Source: Alphaproteobacteria bacterium
Lineage (GTDB): Bacteria > Pseudomonadota > Alphaproteobacteria > Rs-D84
DNA: 64,000 nt
Assembly (NCBI GenBank): GCA_009783145.1
Contig: WRHR01000001.1
Location: 64,492-128,491, forward strand
Direction: 5' to 3'
Made by a program: the position numbers and the translations under genes. The notes below the pieces were generated by a model. The model had not been told where the DNA came from, ran no database searches, and saw only the letters and a list, made by a program, of their open reading frames with translations. Positions 4,218 to 61,817 of the stretch are shown here, in pieces; the stretch's first letter is position 1; each line of letters opens with the position of its first letter.

Positions 4218-4243
4218 AGCTCATTCTCCAAACAAAATGATTT

Positions 4244-4346
4244 TCATTCAATGTGTCAAATGCGCGAGGGGAAAGGGGGCGTAGTGTACAAAGACGTACA
4301 TGAGCCCTCTTTCCCCTCGCGCAGGTGTTTCCGGTGGGGTAATTAA
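4244..4346 (-). ncRNA. Structured 3'-element, copy 1
   Basis: Begins at the stop codon of the lipoprotein gene. On the minus strand: TTACCCCACCGGAAA.., a long stem GCGCGAGGGGAAAG../..CTTTCCCCTCGCGC, and an apical part GGGC-TCA-TGTAC-GTCTTT-GTACA-CTAC-GCCC, then GCATTTGACACATTGAATG. Copies 2, 3 and 4 (41104, 45517, 28597) keep the shape with different stems. Whether it is a processed RNA, a 3' UTR or a REP-like DNA repeat is unknown. Confidence 0.6.
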
Positions 4347-8219: not shown

Positions 8220-8546
8220 ATGTCATTTACTAAACAACAACTTCAGAAATTCGCGCATCTTATCAGGCTGGATGTCAGCGACGAAAAGCTTAACGAAATG
8301 AAAATCGACGGAGTTATCGACTGGCTGGATAAGCTGCAAAAGATTGATACCTCGGGCGTCACGCCGATGCTGACCCCGGCCGAGCACTTGTCCGCCGGAG
8401 CCTTGGCGAAGGAGGATGCCCTGCCCCTGCGCGACGACGTGGTGACGGACGGAAACATCCGCGACGCGGTACTGGCGAACGTGCCGGACGATGCGGGCAA
8501 AACCCGCGGATACTTTTCCGTGCCGAAAGTAATTGACGAGGATTAA
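8220..8546 (+). CDS. gatC: Asp-tRNA(Asn)/Glu-tRNA(Gln) amidotransferase subunit C
   Basis: Small chaperone-like subunit that stabilises GatA and the GatAB interface. 108 residues; typical helical start (LQKFAHLIRLDVSDEKLNEM), then TSGVTPMLTP and the C-terminal GYFSVPKVIDED. The start at 8220 is where homology begins; upstream codons lie in the hexamer element and would give a Cys-Thr repeat peptide. About ten residues around LSAGALAKE look inserted compared with ordinary GatC and coincide with the palindromic repeat at 8386-8420. gatA follows one base after the stop. Confidence 0.88.
   Translation: MSFTKQQLQKFAHLIRLDVSDEKLNEMKIDGVIDWLDKLQKIDTSGVTPMLTPAEHLSAGALAKEDALPLRDDVVTDGNIRDAVLANVPDDAGKTRGYFSVPKVIDED
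8386..8420. repeat. GC-rich palindromic element inside gatC
   Basis: TGTCCGCCGGAGCCTTGG / CGAAGGAGGA, close to the intergenic copy at 45648. In-frame insertion adding roughly LSAGALAKE to GatC. Confidence 0.65.
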
Positions 8547-17239: not shown

Positions 17240-17274
17240 TTTGGCCTGCCACCCATAGCCTTGGCGAAGGGTGG
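17240..17274. repeat. GC-rich palindromic element abutting tRNA-Lys
   Basis: GGCCTGCCACCCATAGCC / TTGGCGAAGGGTGG; its last three bases (TGG) are the complement of the tRNA's CCA end, so the element starts exactly at or inside the CCA tail. Confidence 0.75.
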
Positions 17275-21967: not shown

Positions 21968-23422
21968 TCACTTCAGCTCTTTCTGAGGATTATACGCCTT
22001 CGTGCCTTTGCGGATTTCAAAGTGCAATTGCGGCTCGACAACCTTCCCCGTGTTTCCGACAGTTCCGATTCTTTCGCCGATGGCTACTTTCGCGCCGCGC
22101 TGCACATGCATGATGTCAAGGTGAGCGTAAACCGTCATCCAACCGTTGGCATGCTGAACGATGACCAGGTTTCCCATTCCTTTCAGCTCGTTCCCGGCAT
22201 AAGCCACGACGCCCGCTTCGGACGCCTTGACGACGGTGCCGATGGCAGCGCCTATATTTATCCCGTCGTTATAAAGGCCGTTCGCCTTGTATCCAAAGTC
22301 GGATAAGATCTTGCCGCGCACCGGCCAGGCGAATTTCATCTGCGCTTTGGCGGCAACCGCGGGCAAGGGTTTTGTCGGCGCGCTGGATATTTTCTTTTTC
22401 TCTTCGACTATTTTTGCGGCGTTTCTTCTCTGCCGCTGTTCCAACTCCTGCTTTTGTTTTTCTGCATCGATCCTTTTCTTTTCCGCTTCCTCTTTCTTCT
22501 TTGCCGCTTCCTTTTGCTGTTTTTCGGTTTCAGCTTTCTTGGCGGCTTCCTCGGCCTTCTTCTTCTCTTCTTCTATTTTTTTCTTTTCGGCTTCCAGTTT
22601 TTGTTTATCCGCCTCTATCTTCTTATTCTCGGCGTTCAGTTTTTCAAGTTCCCTCAAAGCATCCTCGTTCTGTTTGGCGCTTTGCGCGGGCGACGCGGCA
22701 TCGGAGGTTGCGACAATCTTCGCGGGCAAGCGAAGCTTTTGCCCCACATTCAGCGCATAAGGCGCGGATAAATTATTTTCCGTCGCCAGAGAGTTCAAAT
22801 CCACCGAATACGCGCGGCTGATGGAATACAGAGTGTCGCCGGCAACTATGGTATGCATGCGCGCGCTCGGCAGCTTTAATTTCTGGCCGACCGAAATCGC
22901 ATAAGGCGCGGCCAATGCGTTCGCGTCGACAAAATCGCGCAGGGGGACATCGTGCTTTTTCGAGAGGGAATAAACGGTGTCGCCTTTTGCGACAATTATA
23001 TCGCCGTTTGCGGGCGCGACGATTTCTGGCTTCGCGTCGTTCTTTGCGGCGCGAGCCGGAACCAGCAAGACATCGTCAGGCTCGGGCGGCGGCGCAGCTG
23101 CGGGTGCAGGTACGGGTTCCGGTTTGGGTTCGGGCTTTGGTTCGGGTTTCAGTTCGGGCGCCGCAACTTTGGGCTCCGGCTTTGCTTGCACCTGTACGGG
23201 CATCACATAATCGTTTTTACTAGAACGTTGGATATAATCATCCCCAGCCTCTATCTGAATATACTCGTCCGTGCTGATGCTATTGCCGTATTCAAAGGCT
23301 TTGTTTTCAACCGGAACTGGTTGCGAATAAGACTCGCCGCCGGCAATTCTCTCGTGCAAGTCACATGCGCCAAGGGCGCATAAGGCACAGAGCATAGAGC
23401 ACAGAGCATAGATTTCTTTCAT
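21968..23422 (-). CDS. LysM-M23 lipoprotein (NlpD/DipM-like, degenerate LytM)
   Basis: 484 residues. Lipoprotein signal peptide ending LGAC (Cys20); its hydrophobic core YALCSMLCALCAL is encoded by a heptamer array. Proline-rich region (80-115), two LysM domains (about 141-185 and 189-233) for peptidoglycan binding, a long Lys/Glu coiled coil (about 250-350) and a C-terminal LytM domain. The late HxH (PQLHFEIRKG) and YAHLD are present, but the first Zn ligands are replaced: GLYNDGINIGA where active enzymes have HxxxD. This is typical of NlpD/EnvC-type amidase activators rather than hydrolases. TATAAT ends nine bases before the ATG, so the mRNA may be leaderless. Divides the envelope block from the glycosyltransferase operon. 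Confidence 0.85.
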   Translation of the reverse strand: MKEIYALCSMLCALCALGACDLHERIAGGESYSQPVPVENKAFEYGNSISTDEYIQIEAGDDYIQRSSKNDYVMPVQVQAKPEPKVAAPELKPEPKPEPKPEPVPAPAAAPPPEPDDVLLVPARAAKNDAKPEIVAPANGDIIVAKGDTVYSLSKKHDVPLRDFVDANALAAPYAISVGQKLKLPSARMHTIVAGDTLYSISRAYSVDLNSLATENNLSAPYALNVGQKLRLPAKIVATSDAASPAQSAKQNEDALRELEKLNAENKKIEADKQKLEAEKKKIEEEKKKAEEAAKKAETEKQQKEAAKKKEEAEKKRIDAEKQKQELEQRQRRNAAKIVEEKKKISSAPTKPLPAVAAKAQMKFAWPVRGKILSDFGYKANGLYNDGINIGAAIGTVVKASEAGVVAYAGNELKGMGNLVIVQHANGWMTVYAHLDIMHVQRGAKVAIGERIGTVGNTGKVVEPQLHFEIRKGTKAYNPQKELK

Positions 23423-25410: not shown

Positions 25411-26058
25411 TTAATCTATTTTAACTGACGATTTTTTGCGCCAATCAATATATGCGGACGAATTATTGTAAATATATATAAATGACCGCAAGAAAAACAG
25501 ATAAGAGCCTGTCATCCAAAACAATACTAAACTGCCAAGATCCCCGGAAAGCCACAAAACCCAAGCATCCGTTTTTTTTCTTATCATAGAAATAAAGCCA
25601 AATAAGCCGAAAAATACCAACATCCAATCCAGAATGCCGATTGCTCCAGCATTGTATCGCCAAATTATTATTACTAAACTCATCAGTATAACAAACGCCC
25701 ACCAAATTGGTCTCGCGAAAGATGGCTGAATAACCTTTCTTGTTTTTTTATCCGGCCGTATCCAGAAATAAAAACTGACCACGGCAATAATTGCGAAAAC
25801 AATACCTGACACAGTTTGCCCAAACAAGCCGATTTTCAGGAAATATATTATGGAAAATATATTCGATGTAAGCATGGCAATATATCCGGCGGGCCACTCG
25901 CGCTTCAATAGCATTATGGATATTATTCCAAACAAAACGGACAAATATTCCCAAACCGACGTATGTGCGATGCCGGTTGCGTTCATTGCGACATATGCGA
26001 GCGAAAATAAAACCGGCCCGACAAACAGATCAATATTCTTCTTTAAAAAATCATTCAT
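25411..26058 (-). CDS. PnuC-like nicotinamide (riboside) transporter
   Basis: 215 residues, seven or eight hydrophobic segments. Family features: VWEYLSVLFGIISIMLL near the start, an internal repeat, and the C-terminal pair DAWVLWLSGDLGSLVLFW followed by YIDWRKK, matching the conserved W..W.D and WRK of PnuC. PnuC imports nicotinamide riboside or related vitamins as NAD precursors by facilitated diffusion; no NAD gene adjoins it, so the substrate stays open. Eight-base overlap with lolA. Confidence 0.75.
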   Translation of the reverse strand: MNDFLKKNIDLFVGPVLFSLAYVAMNATGIAHTSVWEYLSVLFGIISIMLLKREWPAGYIAMLTSNIFSIIYFLKIGLFGQTVSGIVFAIIAVVSFYFWIRPDKKTRKVIQPSFARPIWWAFVILMSLVIIIWRYNAGAIGILDWMLVFFGLFGFISMIRKKTDAWVLWLSGDLGSLVLFWMTGSYLFFLRSFIYIYNNSSAYIDWRKKSSVKID

Positions 26059-26701
26059 AATAGCTATCGCCGCCGGAGGTGGTCACCGTTTTGTGCCTCT
26101 GAATCTGGAAATAATTTTTCGCGAAATCCGTCTTGGTCTTCAGCCCCAAGAATTTCACATCGGTCTTCACGCCGGTCGCATCAAGCACAGTCCAAGAGTT
26201 CAACCGCACAGGCGAGTTATCGAAAACCACATTCATATTGCCAAGCCCCTCGCTGCCCTTGATATGCATCTTCAGCGAAAAAGTATCCTTTCCGGCGTCA
26301 GTTTCGGTTACAACGATATCCGCCGTTCTTAAATCTATATTCTTGCGCACAAGAATTCCCGCGGGAGTGCTTGTCAGCGGCACGGTTGTGATCTGATCCA
26401 ATGATTTATCAAAGAAATACAAATCCTTGCCGTCGGAGATTAATTGCACGGGGGCCTTTTTATAGTCCAGCCTTACGCGCCCGGGACGCAGCATCGCGAA
26501 AGTCCCGCTATCGGTCTTTCCGCTCGACACCTGCGAAAACTCGCCCGCCAATCCGGTAATTGAGTTCAGATAAGTCTCGGCTTTTTTCACCAGCGCATCA
26601 TCCACCGCTGCGTTCGCTTCGCTAGTGTATATTGAATAGTGTATAGTGAATAGTGAAAAACTAATCGCTAATATCTGAAAAAGTTTTAATTTTATTTTCA
26701 T
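26051..26701 (-). CDS. lolA: Outer-membrane lipoprotein carrier protein LolA
   Basis: Periplasmic chaperone that carries lipoproteins from LolCDE to the outer membrane. 216 residues. The mature part has the family pattern ETYLNSITGLAGEFSQVS, GTFAMLRPGRVRLDYKKAP, LISDGKDLYFFDKSLDQIT and LKTKTDFAKNYFQ. The signal peptide is unusual: the hydrophobic core FSLFTIHYSIYT is encoded by heptamers TTCACTA/TACACTA, the left arm of element E, with cleavage after EANA. So a repeat array supplies an essential export signal. Confidence 0.88.
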   Translation of the reverse strand: MKIKLKLFQILAISFSLFTIHYSIYTSEANAAVDDALVKKAETYLNSITGLAGEFSQVSSGKTDSGTFAMLRPGRVRLDYKKAPVQLISDGKDLYFFDKSLDQITTVPLTSTPAGILVRKNIDLRTADIVVTETDAGKDTFSLKMHIKGSEGLGNMNVVFDNSPVRLNSWTVLDATGVKTDVKFLGLKTKTDFAKNYFQIQRHKTVTTSGGDSYYE

Positions 26702-31415: not shown

Positions 31416-32449
31416 TTTATAACTTTCTTTATTATCTGCGCGACCTGATCCATCTCTTCGACGGTGTTCCAAGGCCCTGCGGAAATTCGTATAGTGGAGT
31501 CCAGCCCCAGCCGTTGGTGCAGCCAGGACGCGCACATGTTTCCGACGCGCAGGCAAACCCCATGCGCGCCCATCATGGCACCGAAATCATAAGCATGCAT
31601 TCCATCAACAATAAAGGTCAGCAACGCCGCACCCGCCGGCGATATAAATTTAATTCTATCGATCTTCTCCAATTCTCCGCGCAAATAATTTATCTTATCT
31701 ATGCTCTGTGCTCTATGCTCTATGCTCTCCGCTAACGCAGCTGGCAAACCTGCCAGCTGCGTTAGCGGTAAAGTTCCCGCTTCGAACCGCGAGGGACCGG
31801 TCGCTTTGAATTGCCCGCCGCCGAACTTGTCGGTCTGCCAGCGGTCAGGCTCCTTTAAATATAAGATGCCCAGCCCCGTATCGGCGCCAATCTTGTGTCC
31901 GGAAAAAACCAGCGCATCTGGGGCCATTTCCGCCACATTAATCTTTTCATGCGCGACAAGCTGCGCGGCATCTATAATCGTGATTCGCTTTTTATCCTTT
32001 ATAATCTTCTGCGGAACGCCCAATACATTAGACATGGCCGTAATAACAGCCGCGTCGCATTCCGGAACGGACTTATAATCAAAGTCTTTATCCAATTCGC
32101 ATAATACGGTTTTATGCTTTTCTTGCATCGGAAGCCGTGCGGAGTGATGATCCAGATCGGAAACCGCGACGACTGATTTTGGGGGCAACATATTGGCGAT
32201 TCTATTAAGCCCGTCGGTCGCGCCGCTTGTAAATATTATTTGTTCCGGACCAGCGCTGATAAATTTGGCAACCGCCAAGCGCGCGGTCGCAACCATGCGG
32301 TCGGCGTAATCCGCACGCTCGCATACTCCGCGCCCCGAATTCGCATAATGATTCTGCAGAAAATCAAGCTGGGCGTCTATTACGGACTGTGGTTTTAAAG
32401 CGCTGGCGGCCGCATCTAAATATAAGACTTCTTTCTTATTTGGCAACAT
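31412..32449 (-). CDS. sufS: Cysteine desulfurase SufS (NifS-like)
   Basis: PLP enzyme that converts cysteine to alanine and passes sulfur to SufE. 345 residues, some 50 fewer than usual SufS, the shortfall mainly at the N-terminus. Visible: YLDAAASALKPQSVI, FTSGATDGLN, DLDHHSARLPMQ, internal-aldimine Lys in FSGHKIGADTG, and the catalytic Cys in VGNMCASWLHQ. Residues around LAESIEHRAQSIDK are encoded by a heptamer array bounded by a perfect 18-bp inverted repeat (31699-31768). Start of a sufS-sufT-sufE-ftsL-ftsI run. Confidence 0.92.
   Translation of the reverse strand: MLPNKKEVLYLDAAASALKPQSVIDAQLDFLQNHYANSGRGVCERADYADRMVATARLAVAKFISAGPEQIIFTSGATDGLNRIANMLPPKSVVAVSDLDHHSARLPMQEKHKTVLCELDKDFDYKSVPECDAAVITAMSNVLGVPQKIIKDKKRITIIDAAQLVAHEKINVAEMAPDALVFSGHKIGADTGLGILYLKEPDRWQTDKFGGGQFKATGPSRFEAGTLPLTQLAGLPAALAESIEHRAQSIDKINYLRGELEKIDRIKFISPAGAALLTFIVDGMHAYDFGAMMGAHGVCLRVGNMCASWLHQRLGLDSTIRISAGPWNTVEEMDQVAQIIKKVIK
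31699..31768. repeat. Tandem-repeat arm plus flank palindrome inside sufS (element G)
   Basis: Heptamers ATGCTCT/GTGCTCT (31699-31728) then a perfect inverted repeat CCGCTAACGCAGCTGGCA-AACC and its complement (31729-31768). Only one array is present. Confidence 0.8.
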
Positions 32450-38094: not shown

Positions 38095-40197
38095 TCACTT
38101 CCGTTTTCTGCGCAGAATCGCGATACATAAAATTGAAAACGCCAGTATGATCGCCATCATCCAGTCGCGCCCGATATAACGATAAGGCGTCATATGCGCG
38201 GCACCCACCGTGCCGTCCAGCGCGCCCGCAAAGCCAATGGGTATACTGGAAACAACATGCCCGTCCGCGCCGATAAAGGCGGAAATTCCGGAATAGTTCG
38301 CGCGCACGACGGGAAGTCCCATCTCTATTGCCTGGCGCCGCGCCATATCAAGATGCTGATAAGTTCCGGGCGTGCGCCCGAACCAAGTATCATTGGTAAG
38401 ATTCACTATGGCTTGCGGATTCGTCCCACGCGGTACTAGTGAATCACTAAATATAATCTCATAACAAATAGCTGGAACAAAATTAATTGCTAATTGCTCA
38501 TTGCTAATTGCTAATTGCGTGGCGCCCGCGCCACGCGACAGTTGCCCCGGAGTCGGGATAATATCGCCCAGCGGGCGGTATTCGCCGAACGGCACCAGAT
38601 GCGATTTCGAATAGATGTTTTCAATCTTTCCATCCGCATTCGCGACAATCATAGAGTTATAAAAACTTCCGTCCCGCCAACTGGTCGCGCCGATTATGAT
38701 GGGCCGCCCTAGTTCGCGCGCCAACGGTAAATCATCGCCTTCCTGGCGGATCACAAAAGGATATACCGTTTCAGGAAAAACTATTATATCGGGATTCCCC
38801 GGCGCCTGCGCCAACTCCGCCAGTTTCTGAATATTTTCATTCGCATTAGCGATCGCTTGCTCGCGCGAGTGCGTGGCCTTTTGCTCGGCGCTTCGCGCAG
38901 GCTGAACGATTCGGATTACCGGACGATTGCAACTGCCTTTGCAGAATTCAATACTGCCCAATATATTCCAGTAACCATATCCGATTCCAATAATTGATAA
39001 CGACGCAAATATTCCAGCATTAATAAAATTACCTTTTGCTTTTCTGCTGATGAAAAATTCAGTAATGCTTGCGGTAAATCCCACGATTATAAATGTCAGC
39101 CCCAGCGCGCCCCATAAAGACATGCTGTTGCTGAGCGCTGGAAACGGCATGGTAATATTGGCAACAGGATTCCAAGGAAAACCCGTCAGAAACCATTCTC
39201 GCAACCACAGCACCGCCGTCCAAGCGGCGGCGAATAAAATCGCCCGACCCCGCGGCGGCGTCCATCGACGGCGAAGAGCTAAAAACGGGAGCGAGAAAAC
39301 CAGCGCGCCTCCTATTGCAATCCCGATAATCCCCGGGATGGTCCAAATCGCGAACTCGGCAGCCAATTCCGGCACCACATATATAGAGTTCAAAACCCAC
39401 CAAAAGCTGGCTACGGCATACGCCGCGCCGAAGAGTATAGAGTAAAGCACAGATTTATCCGATCGTTTTGTAACCAGATAATACGCCCCGCCAATCCCCA
39501 GTATTGTCGCCCACCATAAATTGAACGGAGCAAACCCAAGCGAAGCTACCGCTCCGCAGAGCATAGAGCATAGAGCATAGAGCATAGAGTTTTTCCAACT
39601 TATTTTATCTTTGCTCTTTGCTCTTTGCTCTTCGCTCTGACAATTCGCCAAAGGCGAATTGTCGTACGGTTTTTTTATCCCCAGCTGCGCGAGAATCCTG
39701 ACTTCCAGCGCCTCCATCGTGCGCGCGTCCTTGTCGTCGCAATGATCATAGCCCAGCAAATGCAGAACTCCATGCACGATAAGATGGGTGGCATGGTCTA
39801 TAAAATTTTTATCTATGCTCTGTGCTCTATGCTCTATGCTCTCTCGTTTGACGGAGTCAAACGAGATATAAATATCTCCCATCAGCTCCGCATCGCCGGT
39901 CTCGAACGAGAGGACATTAGTCGGCGTATCTTTGCCGCGGTATTTTTTGTTCAGCTTTTGAATTTCCGGGTCATCGGTAAGAATAATCGAAACCTCGCGG
40001 CTTATCTTCCCGAACGCCGCGCCCACACCTACGCTGGGCATCCAAGGAGCAATCGTCCAGTTTGATTTTTTTATTATGTCTTCGGTCTTGTCGTTCGCCA
40101 TCGCGGCGCGCATGGCCACATTCACAATATGCGCGAAATCAATCCGGTATTTATCCCACCGGGAATCGTTAATTGTGATAAATGTTTTTACAGACAT
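38095..40197 (-). CDS. YbeY endoribonuclease - Lnt apolipoprotein N-acyltransferase fusion
   Basis: 700 residues. Residues 1-175 are YbeY, the 16S rRNA maturation/quality-control RNase, with its zinc motif VHGVLHLLGYDH (His142, His146, His152). Residues about 205-700 are Lnt, which N-acylates lipoproteins: six to eight membrane helices and a nitrilase domain with Glu in FPETVYPF, Lys in YSKSHLVPFGE and Cys in ICYEIIF. The two are normally separate, often neighbouring, genes. The junction (about 176-215) is encoded by element L, and the YbeY part carries another array (SIEHRAQSID, about 120-130). Start 40197 follows TTGCAA-N17-TATAAT by six bases with no ribosome site: leaderless. Confidence 0.9.
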   Translation of the reverse strand: MSVKTFITINDSRWDKYRIDFAHIVNVAMRAAMANDKTEDIIKKSNWTIAPWMPSVGVGAAFGKISREVSIILTDDPEIQKLNKKYRGKDTPTNVLSFETGDAELMGDIYISFDSVKRESIEHRAQSIDKNFIDHATHLIVHGVLHLLGYDHCDDKDARTMEALEVRILAQLGIKKPYDNSPLANCQSEEQRAKSKDKISWKNSMLYALCSMLCGAVASLGFAPFNLWWATILGIGGAYYLVTKRSDKSVLYSILFGAAYAVASFWWVLNSIYVVPELAAEFAIWTIPGIIGIAIGGALVFSLPFLALRRRWTPPRGRAILFAAAWTAVLWLREWFLTGFPWNPVANITMPFPALSNSMSLWGALGLTFIIVGFTASITEFFISRKAKGNFINAGIFASLSIIGIGYGYWNILGSIEFCKGSCNRPVIRIVQPARSAEQKATHSREQAIANANENIQKLAELAQAPGNPDIIVFPETVYPFVIRQEGDDLPLARELGRPIIIGATSWRDGSFYNSMIVANADGKIENIYSKSHLVPFGEYRPLGDIIPTPGQLSRGAGATQLAISNEQLAINFVPAICYEIIFSDSLVPRGTNPQAIVNLTNDTWFGRTPGTYQHLDMARRQAIEMGLPVVRANYSGISAFIGADGHVVSSIPIGFAGALDGTVGAAHMTPYRYIGRDWMMAIILAFSILCIAILRRKRK
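38483..38536. repeat. Heptamer array and palindrome in the lnt part (element K)
   Basis: ATTGCTA heptamers (38483-38517) then CGTGGCGC-CC-GCGCCACG (38518-38535); encodes QLSRGAGATQLAISNEQLA in Lnt. Confidence 0.75.
39558..39663. repeat. Tandem-repeat-arm element L at the YbeY-Lnt junction
   Basis: Heptamers AGAGCAT (39558-39589), spacer, complementary TTGCTCT heptamers (39605-39638), palindrome GACAATTCGCC-AAA-GGCGAATTGTC (39639-39663). In frame throughout; encodes the linker between YbeY and Lnt. Confidence 0.85.
39812..39866. repeat. Heptamer array and palindrome in the ybeY part (element M)
   Basis: ATGCTCT/GTGCTCT heptamers (39812-39841) then TCTCGTTTGAC-GGA-GTCAAACGAGA (39842-39866). 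Confidence 0.8.
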
Positions 40198-40322
40198 GCG
40201 GGAATTATACACTTAAATTTTCCCGCTTGCAAATGGGGAAACAATATGATTAACTTACAAAATCTTTCGTCAAATCCGCAAAAGCACTTGCCAAAAATTC
40301 TGATTATGTTAAAATACAAGAA

Positions 40323-41060: not shown

Positions 41061-41090
41061 AAAACAAAATCGCGGCAAAGCCGCGACAAA
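41060..41090 (-). terminator. Terminator after the ftsK 3'-element
   Basis: Minus strand TCGCGGC-TTT-GCCGCGA followed by TTTTGTTTTT. Confidence 0.85.
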
Positions 41091-41103
41091 AAACAAATCA
41101 TTC

Positions 41104-41203
41104 ACATTCAATGGGTCAAATGCACGTGATGGGATGGGGCGTAGCGTACAAAGACGTACGTGAGCCCCATCCTATTACGCGCAGGTGATTTCCGGTGGGG
41201 TAA
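41104..41203 (-). ncRNA. Structured 3'-element, copy 2
   Basis: Directly after the ftsK stop. ATTACCCCACCGGAAATCACC.., stem GCGCGTAATAGGATG../..CATCCCATCACGTGC with G-U pairs, apical GGGC-TCA-CGTAC-GTCTTT-GTACG-CTAC-GCCC, then CATTTGACCCATTGAATG. Confidence 0.62.
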
Positions 41204-43484: not shown

Positions 43485-43755
43485 ATTTCTTTTTAGCGGC
43501 AGGCTTTTTCGCCGGCTTGCCCGCCGTAGCCTTGGCGGAGGTGGGCGCTTTCTTTTTCGCCGTTTTTTTTACGATTGCCGTCTTTTCTGCGGGCTTTACA
43601 TCCTTTTTCTCGCCCTCTTCGTCGCCTTTAAGCTCTTTCTTAAATATATTGATTCCGTTGGCCAAGTTCTTCATTACATCCGGAATTTTCGAATGCCCGA
43701 ACAGAACCAGAATCAATATGACAATTAAAAGTATTTCCCAAAAACCAGCTCTCAT
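43483..43755 (-). CDS. tatA: Sec-independent translocase subunit TatA
   Basis: 90 residues. Short N-terminal membrane helix (FWEILLIVILILVLF), the conserved hinge FGHSKIPDVMKNLANGI and amphipathic helix, then a Lys/Ala-rich tail. TatA polymerises at TatBC to form the passage for folded proteins. It lies 19 kb from tatBC, 24 bases after the SPOR gene. A palindromic repeat (43512-43550) encodes APTSAKATAGKPA in the tail, a tolerant region. Confidence 0.92.
   Translation of the reverse strand: MRAGFWEILLIVILILVLFGHSKIPDVMKNLANGINIFKKELKGDEEGEKKDVKPAEKTAIVKKTAKKKAPTSAKATAGKPAKKPAAKKK
43512..43550. repeat. GC-rich palindromic element inside tatA
   Basis: GGCTTGCCCGCCGTAGCC / TTGGCGGAGGTGGGCGC; in-frame in the disordered TatA tail. 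Confidence 0.75.
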
Positions 43756-45414: not shown

Positions 45415-45516
45415 ATCATTCCTCTTGTTATATAAGGATATTATATCATAAAAATCAAAAGAAAGAAATAAAAAGTGGTGGGAAATACACGCCCCAACCA
45501 AAAATCAAATTATTCA

Positions 45517-45687
45517 CATTCAATGGGTCAAATGTGCGTTGGGGGGGATGGGGCGCACCCACCCACGGAAAACTTTGTTTTCCGCGGGGCCCGGGAAGCG
45601 TACAAAGATGTACGAGAGCCCCATTCCACTACGCACAGGTGATTTCCGGCCTGTCCGCCGTAGCCTTGGCGTAGGCGGATGAGGTAA
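45517..45687 (-). ncRNA. Structured 3'-element, copy 3, invaded by two palindromes
   Basis: Directly after the stop of the small lipoprotein gene. It keeps CGGAAATCACC, the stem, CGTAC-ATCTTT-GTACG and CATTTGACCCATTGAATG. At 45556-45595 the apical loop is interrupted by a CACCCACCCAC../..GGGGCCCGGG palindrome, and at 45648-45684 the base is interrupted by a CCTTGGCG palindrome. Confidence 0.62.
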
Positions 45688-45990: not shown

Positions 45991-47784
45991 CTATTCCGGC
46001 ATTTTCACTGCTTCGTGCATACCGCGCACGAATTCCAGCAGTGATTTCGTTTCTTGCGCCTCGATGCCGAGATAGCGCAAAGTCACGGTTCCGTCGGCCG
46101 CTTCCTTTTCGCCTACGACTGCGATTATCGGGGTCTTGGCCAGCGACAGCTCGCGAACCTTGTAATTCACTTTCTCCGCGCGAAGGTCCGTCCGCGCCCG
46201 TACGCCGACCGCGTTCAGCTCCGCCACGACTCGCTTTGCATAGTCATCATACTTTTCTGAAATTGGGGTAACCACGACCGGTTCGGGCGACAACCACAGC
46301 GGCAGATTCCCACCGGTATTTTCCAACAGAATTCCCATGAACCGCTCTATAGACCCCAGCATGGCGCGATGCAGCATAATTGGGCGATGTTTCGCGCCGT
46401 CTTCACCAACATAGGACAAGTCAAATCTTTCAGGAAGATTCATATCCAACTGAACCGTGCCGCACTGCCATATCCGACCCAACGAGTCTTTAAGATAGTT
46501 GTCTATCTTCGGGCCATAGAACGCGGCGTCTTGCGGCGCGACTTCATATGAAATTTTGTTTTTCTCCAGCGCGTTTTTCAATGCGCCTTCGGCCTTGTCC
46601 CAAGTCGCGTCGTCGCCGATACGAAATTCGGAATCCTTTCTTGTCGCCAGTTTCATAGATATATTATCAAACCCGAACTTGGAATAGATATCCTTTATAA
46701 AGCGAAGGACTTTTATGACTTCTTCCTCCAATTGCTCGGCGGTGCAGAATATATGCGCATCGTCCTGAGTCATTTCTCGCACGCGCATCAAGCCATGCAG
46801 CCCGCCGGCAGCCTCGTATCTATATACCTTTCCGAACTCCGCCAGATACAGCGGCAGGTCTTTATAAGACTTTATGCCCTGACCGAACACCAGCATTCCG
46901 CCGGGACAAGACATAGGTTTTACGCAAAAAGTCCGCCCGTCTTCGGTCTGTCCGGAATAGTTATGCTCGCCGTATTTCGCCCAATGGCCGGATGTTTCCC
47001 ATAAAGACCTGTCCATAAGTCCCGGTGTGGAGATTTCCAGATAGCCGGCTTTTTCCTGGCGCATGCGGACGTATTCTATCAAGCGGCGGTAAATCTTGTA
47101 ACCCTTGTCATGCCAGAAAACCGAGCCTGGGGCATATTCCGACTCGAAATGAAACAAGTCCATCTCGCGGCCCAGCTTTCGATGATCGCGCTTGGCAGCC
47201 TCTTCCATCATATGCAAATGCGCATCCAATTCTTCGCGTGAAGCAAAAGCATCTACATAAACGCGCTGCAGCATTTTGTTTCGCGAGTCGCCCTTCCAAT
47301 AAGCGCCGGCGACACTGCGAATTTTAAACCCGTCTTTGGGCAGCTCTTTGGAAGACTCCACATGCGGCCCGCGACACAAGTCGGTAAATCCTCGAAAATC
47401 ATAAATAGAAAGGTTGGAGGTTGGAGGTTGGAGGTTGGAGGTTGAATCATCTTTACCTCCTACTTCAAACTTCCTACCTCCTACCTCTTCGACCCATTCC
47501 ATTTTAAAAGGCTGACCGGCGAATATTTTTTTCGCTTCGTCCAAGGATACCTCGCGCCGTTCAAACCGGCCAGCCGATTTGATTAGCTCCCGCATTTCTT
47601 TTTCGATTTTCGGAAAGTCTTCTTCGGTAATTCTGTGTTCCAGGTCAAAGTCGTAATAGAACCCGTTTTCGATGGCGGGCCCTCCGCCGAACTTTACGTC
47701 CGGCCACAGCTTTTGCACCGCCGCCGCCAGAACATGAGCCAGCGAATGGCGGATAATTTCTATATCGTATTTATTTTCTGACAT
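45991..47784 (-). CDS. thrS: Threonyl-tRNA synthetase, lacking the TGS domain
   Basis: 597 residues. It begins in the second (editing) region at IIRHSLAHVLAAAVQKLWPD (HxxxH zinc/editing motif), omitting the N-terminal TGS domain; typical ThrRS has about 640 residues. The editing Cys region is TDLCRGPH, and the class II core shows Zn ligands in CVKPMSCPGGMLVF and ligand His in the anticodon-side core, motif 2 VYRYEAAGGLHGLMRVREM and motif 3 GSIERFMGILLE. The anticodon-binding domain closes it. Residues about 101-125 (STSNLQPPTSN) are encoded by a heptamer element at 47411-47489. Confidence 0.94.
   Translation of the reverse strand: MSENKYDIEIIRHSLAHVLAAAVQKLWPDVKFGGGPAIENGFYYDFDLEHRITEEDFPKIEKEMRELIKSAGRFERREVSLDEAKKIFAGQPFKMEWVEEVGGRKFEVGGKDDSTSNLQPPTSNLSIYDFRGFTDLCRGPHVESSKELPKDGFKIRSVAGAYWKGDSRNKMLQRVYVDAFASREELDAHLHMMEEAAKRDHRKLGREMDLFHFESEYAPGSVFWHDKGYKIYRRLIEYVRMRQEKAGYLEISTPGLMDRSLWETSGHWAKYGEHNYSGQTEDGRTFCVKPMSCPGGMLVFGQGIKSYKDLPLYLAEFGKVYRYEAAGGLHGLMRVREMTQDDAHIFCTAEQLEEEVIKVLRFIKDIYSKFGFDNISMKLATRKDSEFRIGDDATWDKAEGALKNALEKNKISYEVAPQDAAFYGPKIDNYLKDSLGRIWQCGTVQLDMNLPERFDLSYVGEDGAKHRPIMLHRAMLGSIERFMGILLENTGGNLPLWLSPEPVVVTPISEKYDDYAKRVVAELNAVGVRARTDLRAEKVNYKVRELSLAKTPIIAVVGEKEAADGTVTLRYLGIEAQETKSLLEFVRGMHEAVKMPE
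47411..47489. repeat. Tandem-repeat-arm element N (GGTTGGA heptamers) inside thrS
   Basis: GGTTGGA repeated (47411-47443), short centre, complementary CCTCCTA/CTTCCTA heptamers (47455-47488); in frame, between the editing and catalytic parts. Confidence 0.82.
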
Positions 47785-47807
47785 TTATTTTGCCTTTTAA
47801 AAATGTT

Positions 47808-47938
47808 TTTGTCATTCCCGCGCAGGCGGGAATAGGGTCCAGACAGTGCGAGCGTAAGCGAGCCATATATTGTGGTCGTGCTTCGCACGACGAGTTTAAG
47901 CCCTATTCCCGCCTGCGCGGGAATGACAAAAGGTTATT
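47808..47938. repeat. Long inverted repeat (GTCATTCCCGCGCAGGCGGG type)
   Basis: GTCATTCCCGCGCAGGCGGG..AATAGGG and its complement CCCTATTCCCGCCTGCGCGG.. about 75 bases apart, with CGAGCGTAAGCGAGC and CGTGCTTCGCACGACG hairpins inside. A widespread type of dispersed bacterial repeat. The rest of 47785-48147 is AT-rich and holds the promoter of the next gene (TTGACA-N16-TATATT, about 48099-48126). Confidence 0.75.
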
Positions 47939-52203: not shown

Positions 52204-52938
52204 ATGGAAAAACAAGAAATAAGAACTTTCGGGCGGGTTCGCGGGAAAAAGCTTTCCGCCCGCCAGCAATGGCTGGTGGATAACTTGTTGCCGGAACTGG
52301 CGCCCACCGGCCCTGACCCCGACCCCAACATCATTCTAGAAATCGGCTTTGGGGCTGGCGAGCATCTGCTGCACCTGGCAGCCGCGCACCCCGACAAGTT
52401 GATAATAGGCGCCGAGCCCTTTATAAACGGGGTCGCGTCATTGCTGTCGCAAATGACGCAGAGCACAGAGCATAGAGCACAGAGCATAGATAATGATAAT
52501 TTATTAAATCTCATCAAACCCGAGTATCGCAATATTAGAATTTGGCCTGATGACGTGAGAAAGCTTTTTACTCTTTCACTCTCTCGCTCTTCTACTCTGC
52601 AAAATCCAGGTTTGCGCTTTGCGCAGATCTGGATTTTGCATCCCGACCCTTGGCCCAAGACAAGGCATGAAAAGCGCCGTTTATTGAGCGCAGAGTTTTT
52701 GGAATTACTGGCCGGCCGTCTTGCCCCCAAAGGCCTGCCGCCCGAAGCCTCGGCGAAGGGCGGGCAAATTATAATCGGAACCGACCATTACGAGTATTAC
52801 GATTGGATTTTGGAACAGGTAAAAAAAACACGCCTAACGACTAGCGACCAGCGACTAGCGACTATTGATACCCGCTACCAGCGCAAGAACAAGGCGGGGA
52901 CGGCCGAGCCAAAGTATTTAATCCTAGGAAAAGCCTAG
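52204..52938 (+). CDS. trmB: tRNA (guanine-N7-)-methyltransferase TrmB
   Basis: Forms m7G46 in tRNA. 244 residues. SAM site IILEIGFGAGEHLLHL (about 43-58), the signature WILHPDPWPKTRHEKRRL (about 143-160) and GTDHYEYYDW. Four segments look inserted: TQSTEHRAQSID (about 86-97), LFTLSLSRSSTLQNPGL (121-137), GLPPEASAK (177-185) and TRLTTSDQRLATIDT (209-223); each is encoded by a tandem array or palindrome, so this one enzyme has absorbed four repeats in frame. -10 TATACT ends six bases before the ATG: leaderless. Convergent with the lysozyme gene. Confidence 0.93.
   Translation: MEKQEIRTFGRVRGKKLSARQQWLVDNLLPELAPTGPDPDPNIILEIGFGAGEHLLHLAAAHPDKLIIGAEPFINGVASLLSQMTQSTEHRAQSIDNDNLLNLIKPEYRNIRIWPDDVRKLFTLSLSRSSTLQNPGLRFAQIWILHPDPWPKTRHEKRRLLSAEFLELLAGRLAPKGLPPEASAKGGQIIIGTDHYEYYDWILEQVKKTRLTTSDQRLATIDTRYQRKNKAGTAEPKYLILGKA
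52455..52872. repeat. Four repeat insertions within trmB
   Basis: AGAGCAY heptamers (52455-52497); ACTCTTTC-type octamers (52569-52597) joined to TGCAAAATCCAG..CTGGATTTTGCA (52598-52640); GC-rich palindrome GGCCTGCCGCCCGAAGCC..GGGCGGGCA (52733-52768); CGACTAG heptamers (52836-52872). Confidence 0.82.
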
Positions 52939-57419: not shown

Positions 57420-58133
57420 TTAGAATACTATATTCACGCGGCCGCCAACGCGCCAATCCTGCTGTTCGAATCCATACGACACAAAGCCCACATACTGCGT
57501 TCTGCCGTATTGGCGCACCAGCTTGAATCCAATGGTTTCTTCATCAAAATGCGGACTGGTCGCTTTCTGGAAGTCGAACCAGGTTCCGATTCGCCAGCCC
57601 TCGCCCAGCTTGAAATAAGCCTCGGGAACCAGGTTTATCCAAGCCATCCCGTGCGCTTCGTCAAAAATCCAACTGGTCTTCAGCAAGCCCGCCAAGGTAA
57701 CCCAGCTCCACTGATGTCCGATCCTAAAGCCCGTCATATAAATGGTATCTGAAAACGCCGGCTCTGCATTGCCCGAAAACTTCACGCCCATAAAGGCATC
57801 CGCGATAATCGGACCTTCGGACATGCGGTACATAACATCCACGCCTATGTGTGAAAAGCCGTCATATTTACGGTCCCGGTCGAAATCATATTGAAGCTTT
57901 ACATTGCCGCCAATAACAAACAGGTCATTAACGCCGTAAGCCGCGCGCAAATCCGCGCCAAGAATGCTGTCCCCCAGCCGCAGCCCCCCGGTCAAGGCAA
58001 GGTCGCGCGCGCGCGCGAAATACAAGGGGTCTTCAACATCCCATTCTGCCGCGTTCGCGGCAGCAGTGAATAGTGTATAGTGTATAGTGTATAATGAACA
58101 GCTCACGACAAATAATCGCATAATCTTTTTCAT
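57420..58133 (-). CDS. Outer-membrane beta-barrel protein
   Basis: 237 residues. Signal peptide MKKIMRLFVVSCSLYTIHYT.. with hydrophobic core encoded by TACACTA heptamers and cleavage at about ANA-AEWD; the mature part is about ten to twelve alternating aromatic strands (IGGNVKLQYDFDRD, WVTLAGLLKTSWIFD, TQYVGFVSYGFEQQ) ending VGGRVNIVF with the terminal Phe. No ligand motif seen. GAGGATATT before the ATG. The upstream gene at 58172-59401 encodes another barrel; the pair may be co-transcribed. Confidence 0.78.
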   Translation of the reverse strand: MKKIMRLFVVSCSLYTIHYTLFTAAANAAEWDVEDPLYFARARDLALTGGLRLGDSILGADLRAAYGVNDLFVIGGNVKLQYDFDRDRKYDGFSHIGVDVMYRMSEGPIIADAFMGVKFSGNAEPAFSDTIYMTGFRIGHQWSWVTLAGLLKTSWIFDEAHGMAWINLVPEAYFKLGEGWRIGTWFDFQKATSPHFDEETIGFKLVRQYGRTQYVGFVSYGFEQQDWRVGGRVNIVF

Positions 58134-59645: not shown

Positions 59646-60295
59646 GCAACCATCCCAATAAATGCGCCCAACAGGACGTCGGACGGGAAATGAGCCCCAA
59701 CCGCGACGCGCGAAACACCGATAATTACGGCCAGCGTCCAAGTCGCCCATTTGAACCGCGGGAACATCAGCCCGATCATGACCAAGGCGGCAAAGCTGGC
59801 CGTCGCATGGCCGCTCGGCATGGAATTAAACGCCCAATCGCTTGTGAACGGATAAAAACCGACCTGCTCCAGCTCTTCCAGAAACACCGGGCGCATACGG
59901 CCCAGTGAAAATTTCAAAATCCATCCGACCGCGCCGGATAACAATAGAGCACAGAGCATAGAGCATAGAGCATAGTTATTCGCGTACTTGAATTTTGTAA
60001 TGCTTCTTTTAATAAAAGGAATTAATTTGAATTTTTTATTATCTATGCTCTGTGCTCTGTGCTCTGTGCTCTTGATTGCGACTGCGATAGCGTATGCTAT
60101 CGCAGTCGCAATCACCCAAACTTTGAACGAAGTTACCGCGCCGATAATGTGCGCCCAGGCGCCATCAAATCTGCGCAGGAAAAAGTAAAGCGGAGCATCC
60201 AGCCAGAAAATGCCAGCCAGACACAAAGCCGCGACGGTTCCCACCGCAATCGCAATCCATTTCCATTTAAGAGTATTATTTTTATTCAGAAACAT
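59615..60295 (-). CDS. PAP2-family phosphatase
   Basis: 226 residues, five or six membrane helices. Acid-phosphatase motifs: KFSLGRMRP (C1), MPSGHATASF (C2) and SRVAVGAHFPSD (C3), with the catalytic His residues. Such enzymes dephosphorylate undecaprenyl or phosphatidic lipids in the envelope. Two arrays are inside: AIKSTEHRAQSIDN and NYALCSMLCALLLSG, the latter forming part of a membrane helix, with a 19-bp palindrome between native sequence and array (60074-60115). The ATG is one base after the S41-type gene stop. Confidence 0.88.
   Translation of the reverse strand: MFLNKNNTLKWKWIAIAVGTVAALCLAGIFWLDAPLYFFLRRFDGAWAHIIGAVTSFKVWVIATAIAYAIAVAIKSTEHRAQSIDNKKFKLIPFIKRSITKFKYANNYALCSMLCALLLSGAVGWILKFSLGRMRPVFLEELEQVGFYPFTSDWAFNSMPSGHATASFAALVMIGLMFPRFKWATWTLAVIIGVSRVAVGAHFPSDVLLGAFIGMVAADLIVAARR
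59944..60115. repeat. Tandem-repeat-arm element T inside the PAP2 gene
   Basis: AGAGCAY heptamers (59946-59975), spacer of about 65 bases, complementary heptamers (60044-60073), then perfect palindrome TGATTGCGACTGCGATAGC-GTAT-.. (60074-60115). Confidence 0.85.
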
Positions 60296-60296
60296 T

Positions 60297-61817
60297 CTAA
60301 TTTTTCTCCGCTATCAGCCCTTTATAAAGCCTTCCGTCCGTCAGGATTTTCATCGCAACGGCGGTGGCCAGCAAATCTTCATCCTCGCCGGATTTGATTA
60401 TCGGACAGCCTTTGCGCGCGGCGGCCGCGTCCAAGCGCGCGTTCGCATTGAAGTCTTTCGCGTTAAAGTCTCCGTTTATGACATTGATAAAAAACGCGCT
60501 CTGCTGCGATTGCGAGCGGATATTGGACAGGCATACCAGCGGAAAGACTCCGCGCCCGTCAAGCTTCATTCCCCGGCCACTTTTGATGGAGCGATTGCCC
60601 AGCTCTATTATGCCCCCCGTCGACAGTTCTATCTTCGTAATCAAGCGCGCGAACCCGGCCGTCGGCGTTCCGACAAGCGCTCCGCGGCGCTCCTCGTGAA
60701 ACGCCATCGCGATGGCCTCGGCTGCGCCTTGCGTCTCGTTGGATACCAAGACAACGACTGGCACGCCCGTGACGGATGCGCCGCCGGGAATGACCTCGAC
60801 CTCTTCCCCGCCGTTCTCTTGAATACGCATAACCGGCCTTGGGCCCAAGAATAAACCGCCCAGTTTTGCCGCCGCGCGCTCGTCCCCGCCGCGCGCCACG
60901 CGCAAATCAAGAATGATTCCGGATGTGTTTTTATATGTGGCCAGCGCTTCGTTAACAATTTTCACCGCATCTTCGGAGATATTATAAACGATGATTTCAA
61001 GGATATTGGTCTTGCGGCGCTCGGGGTCTTGGGCCCTGAAAACTATATCCGCGTCCGCCATGACCACCGTCGCGCGCCGCAGCACTACTGTCTTGGTTCC
61101 GCTTGGGGAGGCCACTTTCAATTTAATCGTGCCGGAGTTAAATCCCGCGAATTCCGCGTTAAGATCCGCGTCCGACATCTGGGCGACGTCCAAGCCGTTC
61201 ATTCCGACAATCAGGTCCCCATCGTTTATCCCGGCGATATCCGCCTGGCTGCCTTTTATGATGCCGGTCACACGCCAGTATCCGCGAGTATCGCGGCTGC
61301 CTTCCAGCCCGGCGCTGGTAAGCACCCGGCTGTTATCCCGGCCGGCCGCGACATATCTCCCGTTCGTGTCCAGCGCATACGTCATCGCCGCCACCGCAAT
61401 GGAGACAATCGTACTCTGCGGATGCGCGGCCAGCGCAGGCTCGCCCGTGCGCATTTTTACAAGTATTGCCGTGGCGATCTGACCAAAGCCGTACCAATCC
61501 TTTGGCTCGGGCCGAGGCCAAGTGCCCAAGATATCATCCCCCCGTACAAGGACGACGCGGCTGTCGGTCACCGCGATCTTGACCTTGGGCGCAAGCGTTT
61601 CCAACGATTCCAAAGCTGCGCGGATATCCTTGCCGCCGAATTTCGCGCGGTCCAGTTTTTCAAAAATCTCGGCGAAAGTGTCAGAGGCCTCGAAAACTTT
61701 CATACCATCAATGACTGGTGTTTCCTGGTCAAACAAATCAGCGGCATGACAAGTAGGAAGTAGGAAGTAGGAAGTAGGAAGTACAAATAAAGATAAAAAT
61801 AAAAAAAGTTTTTTCAT
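60297..61817 (-). CDS. S41 (C-terminal processing) peptidase-like protein, probably inactive
   Basis: 506 residues. Signal peptide MKKLFLFLSLFVLPTSYFLL.., whose core is encoded by AGTAGGA-type heptamers; a helical N-terminal part; a PDZ domain (about 170-250, VTGIIKGSQADIAGINDGDL); and an S41 fold (about 270-420, IILDLRVARGGDERAAAKLG). The nucleophile region reads VSNETQGAAEAIA where active CtpA/Prc enzymes have GSASASE, and the general-base Lys region reads GTPTAGFAR instead of GTFGKG, so both catalytic residues are missing. Likely a pseudo-peptidase that binds rather than cuts. Same minus-strand run as the PAP2 gene. Confidence 0.8.
   Translation of the reverse strand: MKKLFLFLSLFVLPTSYFLLPTCHAADLFDQETPVIDGMKVFEASDTFAEIFEKLDRAKFGGKDIRAALESLETLAPKVKIAVTDSRVVLVRGDDILGTWPRPEPKDWYGFGQIATAILVKMRTGEPALAAHPQSTIVSIAVAAMTYALDTNGRYVAAGRDNSRVLTSAGLEGSRDTRGYWRVTGIIKGSQADIAGINDGDLIVGMNGLDVAQMSDADLNAEFAGFNSGTIKLKVASPSGTKTVVLRRATVVMADADIVFRAQDPERRKTNILEIIVYNISEDAVKIVNEALATYKNTSGIILDLRVARGGDERAAAKLGGLFLGPRPVMRIQENGGEEVEVIPGGASVTGVPVVVLVSNETQGAAEAIAMAFHEERRGALVGTPTAGFARLITKIELSTGGIIELGNRSIKSGRGMKLDGRGVFPLVCLSNIRSQSQQSAFFINVINGDFNAKDFNANARLDAAAARKGCPIIKSGEDEDLLATAVAMKILTDGRLYKGLIAEKN

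Follow-up and report, generated by a model that had tools for sequence, protein, structure and literature searches.

A YbeY-Lnt gene fusion shared by an alphaproteobacterial family and the period-7 hairpin repeat at its joint

In the window analysed here, a stretch of 64,000 nucleotides from an alphaproteobacterial genome (G000; 0.95 Mb, 92% complete), one frame on the minus strand encodes YbeY followed by Lnt, and a repeat, termed element L, sits exactly at the junction between the two. The locus raises the question of whether the repeat joined the two genes, as the initial annotation had proposed, or entered a gene that was already fused. The frame is open over 705 codons counted from a GTG, and its first ATG, the likely start, gives a product of 700 residues (Table 1). 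Pfam searches of the fused protein detected YbeY (1e-30), LNT_N (3e-23) and CN_hydrolase (2e-22). Curated cut-offs were passed by both halves, with 106.7 bits against 25 for PF02130 and 119 against 45 for the NCBIfam equivalog TIGR00043 in YbeY, and 229.5 bits against 132.9 for the equivalog TIGR00546 in Lnt. The YbeY half retains the H3xH5xH zinc site and the conserved arginine (R86, H141, H145 and H151, numbered on the 699-residue translation of window positions 38098-40194, minus strand). The Lnt half retains the LNT_N membrane domain and the nitrilase Glu-Lys-Cys residues together with the E343 equivalent (E475, K530, E538 and C577, by alignment to 5n6m/6nwr), and the catalytic residues of both halves are invariant across the three aligned sequences. 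The initial annotation had likewise read complete YbeY and Lnt in one continuous frame, and the histidines that it listed as H142, H146 and H152 are the same residues counted differently. The fused gene is the sole ybeY match and the sole lnt match in the genome. Judged from its sequence, it encodes full YbeY, a predicted 16S rRNA-maturation RNase, and full Lnt, a predicted lipoprotein N-acyltransferase, with the catalytic residues of both kept.

Table 1. Coordinates of the fused gene and its repeat features within the window.
Feature	Position	Strand	Remarks
Fused ybeY-lnt ORF	38095..40212	-	stop 38095-38097; GTG 40212; likely start ATG 40197
YbeY part	39664..40197	-	ends ...GIKKPY; Pfam match about 39682-40002
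Lnt part	38098..39557	-	LNT_N about 39076-39555; nitrilase domain about 38242-38847
Perfect 25-nt hairpin GACAATTCGCC-TTT-GGCGAATTGTC (element L)	39639..39663	-	encodes DNSPLANC, first linker part
Heptad arm 1 (AGAGCAA)n, purine-rich (element L)	39608..39638	-	hydrophilic linker QSEEQRAKSK
18-nt core between arms (element L)	39590..39607	-	linker KISWK; starts at the AGATAA border common to the repeat class
Heptad arm 2 (CTCTATG)n, complementary to arm 1 (element L)	39558..39589	-	NSMLYALCSML, N-terminal part of Lnt TM1
Second heptad array, YbeY loop (ESIEHRAQSI)	39812..39842	-	abuts hairpin 39840-39868
Third heptad site, Lnt nitrilase-domain loop (QLAISNEQLAI)	38484..38518	-	in the ybeY-lnt gene

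Comparison with relatives revealed that the fusion is widespread. A first survey identified 32 genomes of family f1, a group with tiny genomes, including G000, with both domains in one frame, and the order-wide sample extended this to 94 of 99 family f1 genomes; in two more the domains are split by contig ends only, and three gave no match in the YbeY/Lnt survey. Relatives with the fused gene occur among MAGs of Alphaproteobacteria sampled in the gut of termites and the caecum of yak, and a scan of genome contigs returned three matches, two of which are fused relatives. Outside family f1, the fused frame was found in G039 (family f5) and G052 (family f4); the other members of the order with data have separate genes, and a class-wide sample of 96 genomes showed no further fused frame among the matches listed. 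A tree of both domains, built by a quick method and placing G039 deep on a long branch, has two changes between the fused and separate states, one at the root of f1 and f5 combined and the other in G052. These comparisons strongly suggest that the ancestor of all of family f1 already had the fusion, and that fusion took place at least twice. As the same fusion occurs in about 100 other assemblies, one of them from family f1 assembled as a single contig (G035), a sequencing error that hides a stop codon is excluded in practice. Members of genus g9 (G026, G009, G022 and G029) have a standalone Lnt, in G026 and possibly G009 besides the fused copy, so the fused Lnt half may diverge freely there.

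Element L (39558-39663) begins right behind the ancestral YbeY C-terminus, which ends in KPY at position 39664. Read on the coding strand, it consists of the hairpin, four AGAGCRA units, the AGATAA core and four complementary CTCTATG units. Complementarity gives the two arms opposite character in the protein: arm 1, upstream, encodes hydrophilic linker residues, and arm 2, downstream, encodes hydrophobic residues of TM1. Arm 2 aligns onto TM1 of the solved Lnt structures, so that a membrane helix is encoded in part by the repeat. The initial annotation equated the linker with element L; this is accurate for its position at the junction and inaccurate for its last third, which encodes the start of TM1 (SMLYALCSMLC). 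An AlphaFold model of three sequences (pLDDT 53, pTM 0.38) gave one helix over arm 2 and TM1 (residues 188-221) and a low-confidence linker, and is too weak to count. The linker region of the fused protein also contains KPYDNSPLANCQSEEQR. The element spans 106 nt, with a net gain of 57 nt (19 codons) over G001, a genome of the same genus; it had been called frame-neutral by its period, but 7 is not a multiple of 3. The two other heptad sites in the gene are built of units that contain TAG, and at each the sole variant unit sits at the stop phase and keeps the frame open, AGAGCAC in the YbeY loop and ATGAGCA in the nitrilase loop.

Most genera have the fusion without element L. The gene of G001 is fused through the repeat-free linker DEKARGNFAS, and the linkers of about ten aligned members of g10, a large genus, are likewise free of repeats; these relatives, in which separate genes had been anticipated, are thus still fused. 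Where the junction carries an array, the units differ between genera: AGAGCAA with a complementary arm in G000 and G014, AGAGCAT in G024, GGCATAT in G028 and GAGAACC/GGTTTTC in G008, in addition to a period-8 array in G013 and a weak array in G005. Presence or absence of the junction repeat changes at least six times on the tree, the number of independent gains being approximate because the decayed or irregular inverted pairs found by eye in G003, G012 and G031 are degenerate. Similar invasions affect one loop of YbeY and the loop between TM1 and TM2 in this gene. AGAGCAN arrays gave 41 pattern matches in G000, compared to one in G001. The distribution of these repeats indicates that element L is younger than the fusion.

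The surrounding gene order suggests how the genes were joined. In distant Alphaproteobacteria, ybeY and lnt are spaced by 0.6-1 kb, and a corC family gene lies between them in both of the other-order genomes tested; the corC family was found in none of the seven genomes searched in this order. The phoH family likewise had no match in the order genomes searched and was rejected as an operon partner. In several sister-family genomes, ybeY ends in "aat cct tat gaa taa" (NPYE-stop) with the ATG of lnt overlapping in the +1 frame, and the family f1 proteins still carry GI(K/G)NPY where YbeY used to end. By this comparison, loss of corC in this order brought ybeY directly next to lnt, with an ATG/stop overlap at which a small indel suffices for fusion. 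We infer from the two states seen that such an indel made one frame in the family ancestor, and that the same fusion would have occurred separately in one further family or more. The product would be a cytoplasmic YbeY RNase domain tethered by a linker to Lnt, a membrane enzyme with its N-terminus inside. Period-7 hairpin repeats with differing units then invaded or expanded in the joint, here and in several other genera. The repeat was probably tolerated because the linker has nothing sequence-critical and TM1 needs just hydrophobicity. Both domains would be active in one polypeptide, and joining them was probably neutral or of slight benefit during genome reduction, offering one start signal and fixed 1:1 synthesis. 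Altogether, the locus is best explained by an ancient fusion of the two genes and a later overwriting of their joint by a repeat, with a probability of about 0.87.

Element L belongs to a large class of repeats. In 344 kb sampled from G000 we found 129 period-7 arrays made of more than 20 different heptad units, compared to 0-8 arrays for each period that is not a multiple of 7; the window alone has 22, against none in shuffled sequences, and G001 is almost without them. A complementary, inverted partner lies within 260 nt of 91 of the 129 arrays (71%), versus one at random placements, and 33 arrays (26%) abut a perfect hairpin, as do 2% of random positions (p about 1e-20). Inside genes, the outer ends of arrays are bordered by long perfect hairpins whose sequence is unique, among them those at 31729-31768, 39840-39868 and 60073-60114 of the window, with others elsewhere in G000. 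Arrays are depleted from genes, since 66 of 129 lie inside ORFs, which make up 89% of the sample. With a period of 7, each of the three frames on a strand runs through one common seven-codon cycle. An array without variant units is therefore either open in all three or closed in all three, and a stop filter on the units holds whatever the frame. A stop-free coding strand was found for the units of 54 of the 66 ORF arrays, and stops on both strands for 28 of 63 intergenic arrays.

Arrays lie within the first 35 residues in 23 cases, of which 16 are hydrophobic and correspond to signal peptides or first helices, and for two proteins with such array-encoded signal peptides the relatives retain the mature part with other signal sequences. 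We tentatively suggest, at somewhat below even confidence, that coding sequence in some lineages of the family repeatedly arises from a process that writes inverted hairpins with a period of 7. If so, because complementary arms read first hydrophilic and then hydrophobic whichever strand is used, a single event at a gene boundary would give the upstream side a soluble tail or a linker and the downstream side a signal peptide or a membrane helix. The clearest case would be the YbeY-Lnt joint, which several genera would have rewritten separately. Exported proteins have array-encoded signal peptides or leaders at 23385-23412, 26629-26657, 58065-58093 and 61751-61783, with sequences such as MKEIYALCSMLCALCALGAC, SLFTIHYSIY, SLYTIHYTLFT and LPTSYFLLPT. 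The genes at 26051-26701 and 60297-61817 have mature parts that are kept in relatives and leaders that differ.

Two other origins of the joint give the repeat a different role. Insertion of element L into G000 could have erased the ybeY stop and the lnt start, and the position of the element exactly on the old gene boundary, with in-frame read-through, is what such an event would leave. However, the element is absent from the fused G001, from nearly all other genera and from more than 90 genomes, and the tree places the fusion at the family base; G001 and the family survey rule against the causal claim, and its probability is close to nil. Possible but doubtful is the transposition of element L into the junction as a discrete mobile element, MITE- or REPIN-like, which would fit its many dispersed copies, inverted arms and the AGATAA...TTATCT inner border shared within the AGAGCAN class. 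Against it stand the diversity of heptad units within one genome and the small net gain over G001 from a 106-nt element, which is no clean insertion. The quarter of arrays abutting perfect hairpins of unique sequence resemble fold-back copying plus slippage more than transposition. Moreover, the Y1 transposase family PF01797 was found in none of five genomes searched, in which the controls were positive, and a RAYT/REPIN origin is rejected on this ground.

For the old fusion overwritten at its joint, the remaining issue is what protein is made. Lnt could be translated mainly from an internal start, so that a frame fused in DNA would yield two separate proteins; arm 2 holds the only in-frame ATGs close to the Lnt start, and in G000 and G024 they lie at the right distance from TM1. 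In G000 one of them, located 16 residues ahead of GFAPF, might serve as an Lnt start; it lacks a Shine-Dalgarno sequence, which is present at only 37% of first-ATG starts in this genome. Among 35 fused genes, however, 10 have no ATG, GTG or TTG for a separate Lnt and 21 have no ATG, no start is conserved, and candidate starts with a Shine-Dalgarno sequence occur in only three. The two additional G000 arrays that open only through a variant unit are as expected for translation of the whole frame, and internal initiation is very unlikely. Cutting of the fused protein within its repeat-built linker, releasing free YbeY, is unlikely as well: the linkers are long and variable in length and sequence, and of low confidence in the weak model, but they share no conserved cleavage motif and are very short in several members (G016, G021 and G020). 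With no start codon for a separate Lnt in 10 of 35 genes, the product is likely a single bifunctional, membrane-tethered protein. Compared to G001, Lnt has a dN of 0.28 and a dS of 1.87, a ratio well below 1, and dS for YbeY is saturated. Lgt and LspA are present in G000, consistent with a substrate for Lnt. Both termini of Lnt are cytoplasmic (PMC8048626), which places the YbeY domain where the ribosomes are and agrees with the topology proposed initially. Both activities may well reside in this one tethered protein.

Compared to the ybeZYX-lnt neighbourhood, the locus has the same complete YbeY with its Arg and H3xH5xH residues and the same order of ybeY then lnt, but here YbeY shares one frame with Lnt, and the corC and phoH families were not found in the order genomes searched. 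Mycobacterial Ppm1 is a natural fusion of Lnt to a polyprenol-phosphate mannosyltransferase. It similarly combines membrane Lnt with an extra enzyme in one polypeptide, whereas the partner here is an N-terminal soluble RNase instead of a glycosyltransferase. We found no paper in the open-access literature on a YbeY-Lnt fusion or on YbeY fusions of this architecture, in which a ribosome-maturation RNase and a membrane acyltransferase are joined family-wide. The fusion raises the question of whether YbeY can function when anchored at the membrane. The junction further offers a natural series of fused genes with no repeat, different repeats and decayed repeats, in which simple-sequence DNA turns into linker and membrane helix within a probably essential protein, and it corrects the tempting story of a repeat-made fusion.

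Heptamer repeats are known from other bacteria, as TAACTGA in Beggiatoaceae and cyanobacteria (PMC4679880) and as heptameric repeats in Xanthomonas and Nostoc (PMC4692102). They resemble the G000 arrays as dispersed tandem 7-nt units that lie mostly at gene edges when in genes; by contrast, the G000 arrays have many units and inverted pairs, often stand beside hairpins and encode signal peptides, transmembrane segments and linkers. The TAACTGA pattern of one heptamer in direct repeats, mainly just upstream of starts, is not that of G000. Rickettsia palindromic elements are in-frame palindromic repeats in alphaproteobacterial genes with one consensus sequence. Like them, the repeat here is palindromic and translated inside a probably essential alphaproteobacterial gene, and about half of the G000 arrays lie in ORFs; unlike them, the G000 repeats share only the 7-nt period and the inverted layout, their many units forming no single consensus. 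These elements are also mentioned in a MITE review (PMC10969869). Template-switch (quasi-palindrome) mutation is known to homogenise inverted repeats in coding genes (PMC8604942, PMC6649704); homogenised arms within coding sequence are seen here too, to which G000 adds strict 7-nt periodicity. As far as the accessible portions of these sources go, the heptamer and template-switch reports cited lack the combination present here.

The window contains further repeats. A dispersed intergenic repeat of about 80-150 nt, with copies 81-90% identical (4230-4307, 41090-41195 and 45499-45649), contains TACAAAGACGTAC and GCGCAGGTGATTTCCGG. A second dispersed, palindromic family, GCCCGCCGTAGCCTTGGCGGAGG, occurs at 43512-43544, 45646-45678, 8383-8415, 17241-17273 and 52730-52762; one copy lies inside a tatA-like gene and encodes TSAKATAGKP, and a related sequence is found within the YbeY-Lnt linker of G003 (PAFAKATAGRR). 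In addition, a perfect 31-bp inverted repeat, CATTCCCGCGCAGGCGGGAAT (47807-47837 / 47901-47931), lies upstream of a threonyl-tRNA-synthetase-like gene (45991-47784).
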